From: Candidatus Buchananbacteria bacterium RIFCSPHIGHO2_01_FULL_44_11
GTDB taxonomy: Bacteria; Patescibacteriota; Patescibacteriia; Buchananbacterales; UBA6539
Reading direction: 5' to 3'
DNA length: 51,157 nt
NCBI GenBank assembly: GCA_001817345.1
Contig: MHIE01000001.1
Span: 1-51,157 of the forward strand
Part shown: positions 5,116-30,982 of the stretch, piece after piece
How the letters are laid out: the number at the start of each line of letters is the position of its first letter
Position numbering within the stretch: position 1 is the first letter of the stretch
Made by a program: the position numbers and the translations under genes
Notes under the pieces: model-generated
What the model saw: the letters and a program-made list of their open reading frames with translations, nothing else
What the model was told of the DNA's origin: nothing
Databases searched by the model: none

Positions 5116-5138
5116 ATTCAATAATAAAACAAGAATTA

Positions 5139-5287
5139 CCTTCTTTCATCCCGACTTTCCCGATATAGAATCAGGATGCCGATTTTACATCGGCATACGG
5201 TCGGCTCTGGAATTACACCAGATCATGCCCGGCTATGGGCTCGTGGGCTTTACCACCGATTGGGACTTTCACCCGACCCCGAAGGAT
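5139..5287 (-). ncRNA. FMN riboswitch (RFN element)
   Basis: Minus strand ATCCTTCGGGGTCGGGTGAAAGTCCCAATCGGTGGTAAAGCCCACGAGCC...GATCTGGTGTAATTCCAGAGCCGACCGTA...GGGATGAAAGAAGG matches RFN conserved blocks; immediately upstream of ribE. Confidence 0.94.
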
Positions 5288-5293
5288 ATTGAT

Positions 5294-13290: not shown

Positions 13291-13446
13291 TTATTTTGTT
13301 TCTTTATGTGGAGTGTGTTTGCGGCAATGCCGACAGAACTTTTTAAGTTCCAAACGGTTCTTGAGAGTCTTTTTGTTCTTAGTGGAAAAATAGTTGATCT
13401 GTTTACACTCCGTGCACTCCAATTTGATGAGGTTATCTTGAGACAT
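13291..13446 (-). CDS. rpmG: 50S ribosomal protein L33 (51 aa, below ORF-track cutoff)
   Basis: [51 protein letters not shown]; zinc-binding CxxC...CxxC. Confidence 0.93.
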
Positions 13447-13537
13447 AAGTTGGCTGTTTTATTATCGCTGTTAGTTAATAGTAAATTATTCGTCGGTGGA
13501 GCCGAGAATCGGATTTGAACCGAGGACCGACGGTTTA

Positions 13538-13696
13538 TCCCGATTTCATCACATTTTGCCAAGCCAGGAGAGGGATTCGAACCCACGACCTTCACTTTAC
13601 AAAAGTGTTGCTCTACCACTGAGCTACCCTGGCAAAATGTGATGAAATCGAGGATCCTCGACTTCCTTATTTTTTAAAATAATAGGTGCGTCGGGA
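13538..13696 (-). mobile_element. Palindromic insertion with TCCCGA/TCGGGA ends carrying an intact tRNA-Thr(UGU)
   Basis: TCCCGAC...GTCGAGGATCCTCGATTTCATCACATTTTGCCA-[tRNA]-TGGCAAAATGTGATGAAATCGGGA. Confidence 0.7.
13562..13633 (-). tRNA. tRNA-Thr (UGU), intact, inside the interrupted tRNA-Thr(UGU)
   Basis: GCCAGGGTAGCTCAGTGGTAGAGCAACACTTTTGTAAAGTGAAGGTCGTGGGTTCGAATCCCTCTCCTGGCT folds; UGU anticodon. Confidence 0.9.
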
Positions 13697-13748
13697 CAAA
13701 ACAGCTGCTCTACCGTTGAGCTATCTCGGCACAGTTTATGCCGCCTCT

Positions 13749-13806
13749 GGCGGCACCCCGCCTGCCCCGCAGAATGCGGTGGCCAACGGCGGTGGCAGTC
13801 AGCCCT
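13749..13806. repeat. 58-bp direct repeat, copy 1
   Basis: ggcggcaccccgcctgccccgcagaatgcgRtggccaacggcggtggcagtcagccct; copy 2 at 14552-14609 with one mismatch. Confidence 0.9.
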
Positions 13807-13830
13807 ATTTCTAACCATTTTGGGTGGAGC

Positions 13831-13846
13831 AGGATTCCTCGCCGGA
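13831..13846 (-). pseudogene. 3' terminal fragment of a tRNA-Tyr copy
   Basis: gggtggagcaggattc is identical to the 3' end of intact tRNA-Tyr, then diverges into a GC-rich palindrome at the T-loop. Confidence 0.6.
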
Positions 13847-13891
13847 GGCGAGTGCGCCTGCCAACCTCTGGCTGACATCCGGCGCAGAACC

Positions 13892-14693: not shown

Positions 14694-14718
14694 AAAATGG
14701 AGCCGTTGATCGGATTTG

Positions 14719-14800
14719 TCCCGATTTTTCTCCCAATTATATCGGGATGAAAAATCGAGGATCCCGCCTGCCTTAAAACAAAATGATTATTCTGGCGGGA
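14719..14800 (-). mobile_element. 82-nt double-palindrome element inserted in a tRNA T-loop
   Basis: Minus TCCCGCCAG...GGCAGGCGGGATCCTCGATTTTTC...GAAAAATCGGGA; removal restores GTCGG-TTCAAAT-CCGAT. Confidence 0.75.
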
Positions 14801-14816
14801 AACCGACGACCTACTC

Positions 14817-14996
14817 TCCCGATATTCTTTCAAAATTTTTCTGGAGCCCGAGGGCGGACTTGAACCGCCGACCTACTCCTTACCATGGAGTTGCTCTACC
14901 AACTGAGCTACCCGGGCAAATTTTGAAAAATTTTGAAAAAGAAATATCGAGGATCCTCGAAAATTAGCAAGATCAGAGATTTTGGAATTTTCGGGA
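14817..14996 (-). mobile_element. 180-nt double-palindrome element in the anticodon arm, carrying intact tRNA-Thr(GGU)
   Basis: Minus TCCCGAAAATT...AATTTTCGAGGATCCTCGATATTTC...-[tRNA]-...GAATATCGGGA. Confidence 0.75.
14842..14917 (-). tRNA. tRNA-Thr (GGU), intact, CCA encoded
   Basis: GCCCGGGTAGCTCAGTTGGTAGAGCAACTCCATGGTAAGGAGTAGGTCGGCGGTTCAAGTCCGCCCTCGGGCT-CCA. Confidence 0.93.
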
Positions 14997-15076
14997 CTTA
15001 CCATGGAGTTGCTCTACCAACTGAGCTAGGTGGGCAGAGGAGGCGGGGCCAACTGAGTTACAACGGCTTAATGTTT

Positions 15077-30066: not shown

Positions 30067-30600
30067 TTATTTTTTATCTTCATTATTCTTGTCAGTTTTT
30101 TTGGGGTCTGGCCGTTTCAACTTTAAAAGCGCGTTCATTGTTGCCAAAACATTGTTAATTTTATTTTTAGAACCTAAAATTTTGGCCACGACATTAGACA
30201 CCCCGGCCAATTCCAAGACTGATCGAACCGCGCCACCGGCAATAATACCGCTACCGGCGGGTGCCGGCTTCATTAAAACTCTGGCCGCGCCGTATTTGGC
30301 GTCAACCCGATGAGGCAGGGTGCCATTAATCGTGACCACGCTAATTAAATTTTTTCTGGCTTTAGTCACCGCTTTATTGACCGCTAAGGTGACATCGGCG
30401 CCTTTAGCCACCGCCATGCCGACTTTGCCCTTTTTATCGCCAATCACGACACAAGCCCGAAAACGCATCCTTTTGCCGCCGGCCATGACCCGGGTCACCC
30501 GGGCAATATCAATAATCGCTTGTTCAAAACCGTCATCGGAAGATTTTTGATCTCTTCTGCCGAACGACCGGCTGTTTTTTGGTTTGCTTTCTGTAGGCAC
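30067..30600 (-). CDS. rpsE: 30S ribosomal protein S5
   Basis: RFRACVVIGDKKGKVGMAVAKG; APAGSGIIAGGAVRSVLELAGV. Confidence 0.95.
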   Translation of the reverse strand: MPTESKPKNSRSFGRRDQKSSDDGFEQAIIDIARVTRVMAGGKRMRFRACVVIGDKKGKVGMAVAKGADVTLAVNKAVTKARKNLISVVTINGTLPHRVDAKYGAARVLMKPAPAGSGIIAGGAVRSVLELAGVSNVVAKILGSKNKINNVLATMNALLKLKRPDPKKTDKNNEDKK

Positions 30601-30622
30601 AAGTTTAAAAAATTAATAGTTA

Positions 30623-30982
30623 TTAAAACTTCAAACCGCCTTTTCTGGCGCCCTCACCAACCGCTTTAACCCGGCCATGATATTTATACCCGGCTCGGTC
30701 AAAAATCACTTGGTTAATGCCAACCTTAATCCCTTTGGCCGCGATCAATTCGCCAATTTTAAAAGCGACATCGGTCTTTTTTAAATCACGGCCCTTAACT
30801 TCCCGGCTACTGGCCGAGGCCAAGGTTGTCCCCGTTTCATCATTAATCAACTGAACATAAATGCCTTTGAGACTGCGAAAAACCACCAGTCGCGGCCGGA
30901 TCTGGGTGCCAAAAATTTTGGCTCGGCCCCTGGCCTGCCGCCGTTTTTTTAAATCTTTTTTAAATTTATCTTTATTAATCAT
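30623..30982 (-). CDS. rplR: 50S ribosomal protein L18
   Basis: RPRLVVFRSLKGIYVQLINDETGTTLASASS; FDRAGYKYHGRVKAVGEGARKGGL. Confidence 0.95.
   Translation of the reverse strand: MINKDKFKKDLKKRRQARGRAKIFGTQIRPRLVVFRSLKGIYVQLINDETGTTLASASSREVKGRDLKKTDVAFKIGELIAAKGIKVGINQVIFDRAGYKYHGRVKAVGEGARKGGLKF

Follow-up and report, generated by a model that had tools for sequence, protein, structure and literature searches.

A tRNA-Thr(UGU) gene nested within a split tRNA-Thr(UGU) gene in Candidatus Buchananbacteria, and its probable origin from a small palindromic element

Anatomy of the nested tRNA-Thr(UGU) locus

The window analysed here is the whole 51,157-nt stretch of contig MHIE01000001.1 from Candidatus Buchananbacteria bacterium RIFCSPHIGHO2_01_FULL_44_11. 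The assembly of this genome (G000) is 943 kb and 78% complete. The window contains, in this order, tRNA-Thr(GGU), tRNA-Tyr, tRNA-Thr(UGU), an rpmG-like gene and tRNA-Trp, where the rpmG label is our own reading of the sequence with no database match behind it. An intact tRNA-Thr(UGU) gene lies inside a second, split tRNA-Thr(UGU) gene, and the features of this locus are as follows.

13730-13697, minus strand: 5' half of the outer tRNA-Thr(UGU), 34 nt, ending at anticodon position 35 (TTTTG), with an intact homologue in the relative G011
13696-13538, minus strand: inserted element, 159 nt, with ends TCCCGA/TCGGGA, common to other tRNA loci
13696-13652, minus strand: hairpin I, TCCCGAC-GCAC-A/T-rich-AAGGAA-GTCGAGGATCC, with 15 aligned copies
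13650-13630, minus strand: left arm of an inverted repeat, including GCCA of the inner tRNA
13633-13562, minus strand: inner intact tRNA-Thr(UGU) without encoded CCA, presumed functional (ARAGORN; Rfam)
13561-13541, minus strand: right arm of the inverted repeat
13537-13497, minus strand: 3' half of the outer tRNA-Thr(UGU) from position 36, plus CCA, 41 nt

The first-pass annotation had described a tRNA-Thr(UGU) split in the anticodon loop by a 159-nt element carrying another tRNA-Thr(UGU), and the coordinates and ARAGORN calls agree with this description. The insertion point is located between anticodon bases 35 and 36 of the outer gene, with a one-base ambiguity (a shared T) at the junction between outer gene and insert. 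The joined outer halves were called by ARAGORN as tRNA-Thr(UGU) of 75 nt with the encoded CCA and 72 nt without it, as annotated; the annotated U29xC41 mismatch in the anticodon stem was also seen, and a G27-U43 wobble was found in addition. The intron modes of ARAGORN missed the outer gene at the locus and gave wrong calls only. The inner gene scored 66.4 bits with the Rfam tRNA model. The perfect inverted repeat around it, earlier estimated at ~20 bp, is 21 bp long (13650-13630 with 13561-13541). It extends over the opening GCCA of the inner tRNA, so that the 3' arm resembles the 5' flank and the tRNA start copied in inverted orientation. Hairpin I, the inner tRNA and the two arms take up the whole 159-nt insert, and no protein gene of its own and no integrase was found in it.

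The nested architecture was confirmed to be real and not a product of chance, since flanking repeats exceed shuffles, the split-tRNA finder was silent on shuffled sequence and the folding z-score of the locus was -5.2. Inverted repeats of at least 9 bp flank 27 of 137 distinct tRNA genes (nine in G000), against 3 of 411 shuffles, in a gene set built around the tRNA loci of relatives and not as a random sample. The split-tRNA finder gave two matches in the window, both real, and none in five shuffled windows. The search of relatives had already given split matches, and the recurrence of the architecture in independent assemblies rules out an assembly error.

A second nested case and a tRNA-Tyr relic lie on the same strand of the window.

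14997..15035, minus strand: 5' half of an outer tRNA-Thr(GGU)
14951..14996, minus strand: hairpin I of the element around tRNA-Thr(GGU)
14842..14917, minus strand: inner intact tRNA-Thr(GGU), with a flanking 14-bp inverted repeat (14938-14925 / 14841-14828)
14698..14816, minus strand: 3' half of the outer tRNA-Thr(GGU), its T loop (GGTT^CAAATCC) broken by an 82-nt twin-hairpin element at 14800-14719
14633-14599, minus strand: 5' half of a tRNA-Tyr relic
14598-14522, minus strand: 77-nt palindromic insert after G34 of the tRNA-Tyr relic

The insertion in tRNA-Thr(GGU) is located elsewhere in the anticodon loop, at AAG^GAGT. The tRNA-Tyr relic is followed on the minus strand by a GIY-YIG gene (14508-14254) and then by an intact tRNA-Tyr (14250-14165), whose 5' half is identical to that of the relic. 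A second tRNA-Tyr fragment with its palindromic insert (13805-13740, minus strand) lies directly upstream of the outer tRNA-Thr(UGU), and a tRNA-Trp-like 5' fragment (13238-13216, minus strand) lies directly upstream of the intact tRNA-Trp. The window also contains an FMN riboswitch (5134-5290, minus strand; 90.5 bits).

Elsewhere in G000, four layers of tRNA-Ala are nested: an intact tRNA is preceded by a series of three 5' halves, each of which the element cuts off at ATTTG. Nested or split relics accompany an intact tRNA of the same kind for Ala, Cys, Gln, Thr(GGU), Thr(UGU) and Val, and partial remains were found for Glu, Ile, Trp and Tyr. On contig C16 (~30100-30900; L030, L088) a GIY-YIG gene begins directly after a tRNA-Glu 5' half and is followed by an intact tRNA-Glu in a 21-bp inverted repeat and then by a further tRNA-Glu relic.

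Intact inner genes and decaying outer genes in relatives

The inner gene was called as a tRNA in all of 18 curated nested tRNA-Thr cases, whereas the joined outer gene was called in only five. Five outer genes are without the 5' anticodon strand, and other outer genes have broken stems or D-arm palindromes. Inner and outer genes are often only about 70-75% identical, and the cases form a series of stages, from near-identical inner and outer genes (G051, 71 of 73 positions identical) through decayed outer genes (G004, G047) to loci with the inverted repeat only (G003, G007). In G000, G004, G046, G047 and G051 the inner gene was the only intact tRNA-Thr(UGU) found with a pattern that would miss very divergent genes. 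G047, covered over the full length of its three contigs, contains 50 intact tRNAs of 45 anticodon types which cover every codon box, and therefore no split tRNA is needed there.

An uninterrupted form of the outer gene, for which the first-pass annotation had proposed a search in relatives, was found in G011 (contig C30). Its halves are contiguous and 89% and 85% identical to those of the window. This intact homologue occupies the same place in the gene order of tRNA-Tyr, rpmG and tRNA-Trp, in a genome of another family of the same order, and provides an empty site.

The anticodon loop is the usual seat of tRNA introns, and the joined outer sequence of the window is still called tRNA-Thr(UGU), with CCA. 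The 159-nt element could thus be spliced out so that both tRNAs come from one precursor, one of them nested in the intron of the other, as the earlier annotation had implied. We consider such splicing very unlikely. The outer genes of 13 of the 18 homologous cases were not recognised as tRNAs even when joined (the outer gene of the window is recognised), and the intact tRNAs of G047 suffice for all codon boxes. A cmscan search of 13400-13850 at up to E=10 matched no group I or other intron family and no ribozyme family, although inserts in relatives that appear to be of group I likewise escaped Rfam. The search for RtcB was negative in G000 (78% complete) and in the near-complete nested genomes G004 and G047, and positive in G046 and G051. 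To our knowledge, the splicing endonuclease of archaea and eukaryotes is absent from bacteria. G000 has a CCA-adding enzyme domain. We prefer replacement over splicing because the inner genes are intact, the outer genes decay, the codon boxes of G047 are covered, RtcB was not found in these three genomes and the CCA-adding domain is present.

The outer gene is thus best read as a relic. In the window it is only mildly damaged and encodes CCA, which may fit either a recent insertion or a residual function. A complete cognate tRNA inside the insert would restore the tRNA at the target, and this inner tRNA is probably in a working state, expressed and charged. In the Uhrbacteria loci L113 and L037 the inner tRNA-Thr is likewise without encoded CCA, and the CCA-adding enzyme domain (PF01743) was not found in this genome, which is listed as 100% complete.

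Distribution, palindromic element and insertion sites

Among 85,462 genomes scanned for orphan 3' halves of tRNA-Thr with CGGG directly before them, 18 loci were found. Fifteen of these are intact tRNA-Thr genes beside orphan halves, mostly nested, and the other three are chance matches in coding genes. The 15 loci come from Buchanan-, Uhr-, Moran-, Portnoy- and Campbellbacteria, Paceibacterota, other Patescibacteria and two Elusimicrobiota. The exact signature was positive in 5 of 384 ABY1 genomes. The exact element pattern matched, among 145 ABY1 genomes, in the window's genome only; this pattern is too strict, since variants exist in other organisms. Remnants of the same isoacceptor (flanks within 250 nt, score of 30 or more) lie beside 8 of 29 tRNAs in G000 (about 28%, against 3.5% of mismatched pairs) and beside 19 of 50 in the near-complete relative G047 (38%, against 1.8%), where the mismatched pairs combined the flanks with halves of tRNAs for other amino acids, within these two genomes. 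A recurrent nested replacement at tRNA genes is well supported.

Outside Patescibacteria, orphan tRNA-Thr halves surround an intact tRNA-Thr in two Elusimicrobiota assemblies (L100, L103). A contig labelled Thermodesulfovibrionia (L106, JAUXYI010000028.1) has the Patescibacteria-type order of Tyr, Thr(UGU) and rpmG-like gene with a nested tRNA, and is probably misbinned; in this other assembly hairpin I recurs together with a tRNA-Thr flanked by an inverted repeat. A viral origin was also considered and rejected: the sole IMG/VR match of the nested signature was a chance match within a phage protein gene.

Fifteen copies of hairpin I were aligned and read roughly T-CCCGAC-KYAC-A/T-rich-AAGDA-GTCGRG-GATCC. 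Genes for Thr, Cys and Ala have hairpin I in the anticodon loop. Together with a small hairpin II that contains no tRNA, it is also located in T loops (GGTT^CRAAT), in relics of Glu, Thr and His genes, and the T loop of an Ile relic contains a similar insert. One copy is intergenic, outside any recognisable tRNA (G004, contig C22; flank CATT). Other nested elements have different palindromic ends, CCCCGCACC/GGTGCGGGG and CCTGCCCGCC/GGCAGGCGGG, indicating that more than one palindrome family takes part.

The insertion is at exactly 35^36 on both sides in 13 of 18 tRNA-Thr cases, which include UGU as well as CGU genes from many lineages. In the other five the left boundary is shifted to the D arm and the right boundary is still at 36. 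The genome scan was seeded with the exact right-junction sequence, so the constancy of that side is partly ascertained. The right boundary was in the search pattern for many cases, and the independent evidence therefore comes from the left boundary and from the cases detected by other means, in the Cys, Tyr and Ala genes and the Thr(CGU) gene of G004. No target duplication was found. The right flank is YRAA in most tRNA cases, but CATT at the intergenic copy and GAGT at one tRNA-Thr(GGU). Targeting is not absolute, as the intergenic copy and the AAG^GAGT site in the window's tRNA-Thr(GGU) indicate.

In the window, G004, L101 and L104 the tRNA shares its first 3-6 bases with the arms, and in Cys its last bases. 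These overlaps point to templated inverted copying, or to capture of a tRNA at the hairpin tip. In the Uhrbacteria loci L037 and L113 several layers repeat one arm-tRNA-arm unit, and in L110 and the Ala array a half plus an arm is present in tandem copies; a scaffold gap inside L110 means that its repeats need caution. Such layers and tandem copies suggest repeated insertion plus unequal recombination.

The same tandem units resemble unequal crossing-over, as do the extra 3' halves without 5' halves in L103, L099 and L031, and the relics adjoin intact tRNAs of the same kind. These loci could therefore have arisen with no mobile element at all, if tRNA genes were duplicated in tandem many times and then decayed, with deletions at palindromes, until an intact copy was left between half copies. 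We regard this as an improbable origin for the nested loci as a whole. Outer boundaries at exactly 35^36 on both sides in most cases, combined with complementary arms, are not expected from independent deletions. Hairpin I is common to different tRNA families and to T loops, and the frequently low identity of inner and outer genes also argues against this origin. Tandem duplication and deletion could nevertheless be the source of some extra halves.

The recurrence of insertion points is also compatible with homing, in which a GIY-YIG nuclease would cut tRNA loops and repair would copy the element in, that is, insertion with a named enzyme. G000 has 16 GIY-YIG matches over the Pfam cut-off, and several of these lie next to split tRNA genes, for Tyr in the window and for Glu on C16. 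However, neither the 159-nt element nor most of the others contain a GIY-YIG gene, many GIY-YIG genes lie away from the listed tRNAs, and other roles are common among single-domain GIY-YIG proteins. We think it unlikely that this enzyme drives the insertions.

Proposed replacement of tRNA genes and comparison with known systems

The locus is probably a nested, replaced tRNA gene, made by a small, protein-less palindromic mobile element that carries a cognate tRNA. The putative element would consist of hairpin I followed by hairpin II, which holds a complete cognate tRNA gene in its loop. Its target would have been an N^YRAA site directly behind base 35 in the anticodon loop of the resident tRNA-Thr(UGU), and in other cases a T loop. 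The insertion, as mobile DNA, was probably the work of an enzyme that acts in trans on hairpins or ssDNA. It would have broken the resident gene and left the element's own tRNA-Thr(UGU) as the functional gene, and the cell would have survived because the element supplied this tRNA. The outer halves would be left as relics and then decay, and many repeats of the process across many tRNA families would build Russian-doll layers. Extra half copies may come from unequal recombination between repeated halves. Normal RNase P and tRNase Z, possibly with RNase III, would release the inner tRNA, followed by CCA addition. More tentatively, the element may be a selfish tRNA cassette, which targets the anticodon loop of its own kind of tRNA, replaces the gene that it kills, becomes essential and can be invaded in its turn.

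Tyrosine recombinases that integrate phages, plasmids and archaeal viruses at tRNA sites restore the tRNA gene, as in the SSV1 and pNOB8 type (PMC3293823). The present element is like these in its insertion at tRNA genes, in bringing in the sequence of a working tRNA and in leaving a tRNA fragment behind. Integrase elements, however, encode an integrase and rely on a shared att sequence for the restoration of the gene, whereas here a gene-less 159-nt element is inserted in the anticodon loop with a complete second tRNA. The closest published idea that we found is the mobile-element-driven disruption of tRNA-Thr(GGU) in the archaeon Caldiarchaeum subterraneum (PMC3293823). There, too, a tRNA-Thr 5' fragment lies near an intact tRNA-Thr, but that case is a single locus without nesting, with spliced archaeal introns and a 1.8-kb element that encodes a recombinase. 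A search of open-licence literature gave no description of nested bacterial tRNA genes.

Rickettsia palindromic elements and other bacterial MITE or REP palindromes are short and occupy many sites, including RNA genes, as is the case here. The element likewise is short and non-coding, has TCCCGA/TCGGGA ends and is represented by the 15 aligned hairpin I copies. We know of no tRNA cargo and no nested layers in tRNA loops among those palindromes. In its hairpin ends, the lack of an apparent target duplication and a short flank that is mostly constant at just one side, the element resembles IS200/IS605-type elements and their derivatives, but no Y1 transposase could be linked to it and the hairpin layout differs, with the cargo in the loop of hairpin II. 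No such palindromes were found around the three Y1_Tnp loci in the genome, and no link of the flanks to RAYT/Y1 transposases was found. We place the element among mobile elements that target tRNA genes, since it lacks those defining features of integrases and introns that were tested, while it has short, repetitive palindromic ends and brings a tRNA that would restore the target.

If this replacement is correct, essential tRNA genes can be replaced serially by the very element that destroys them, the turnover of tRNAs in reduced genomes would have an explanation, and annotation may miss or misread nested tRNA loci. A large share of the tRNA genes in two Patescibacteria lies among or inside their own relics, and the outer, middle and inner layers provide a relative time series of tRNA gene replacement.

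Bacterial tRNA genes have been described as structurally uniform, with group I and II introns as the sole notable exception (PMC4033280). Bacterial tRNA group I introns also interrupt the anticodon loop (PMC4033280), but in the element no catalytic core was recognised, its cargo is a tRNA and the outer gene decays. In four ABY1 genomes a tRNA-Thr(GGU) is broken after the anticodon by a conserved insert of ~197-235 nt, which ends in G and has a AAGATACAGTC-like motif. Rfam reports no intron in this insert, which looks like a small group I intron. The interrupted genes are at the following positions.

L010:2606-2330, minus strand: interrupted tRNA-Thr(GGU)
L016:1583-1307, minus strand: interrupted tRNA-Thr(GGU)
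L020:235-541, plus strand: interrupted tRNA-Thr(GGU)
L026:1834-2102, plus strand: interrupted tRNA-Thr(GGU)
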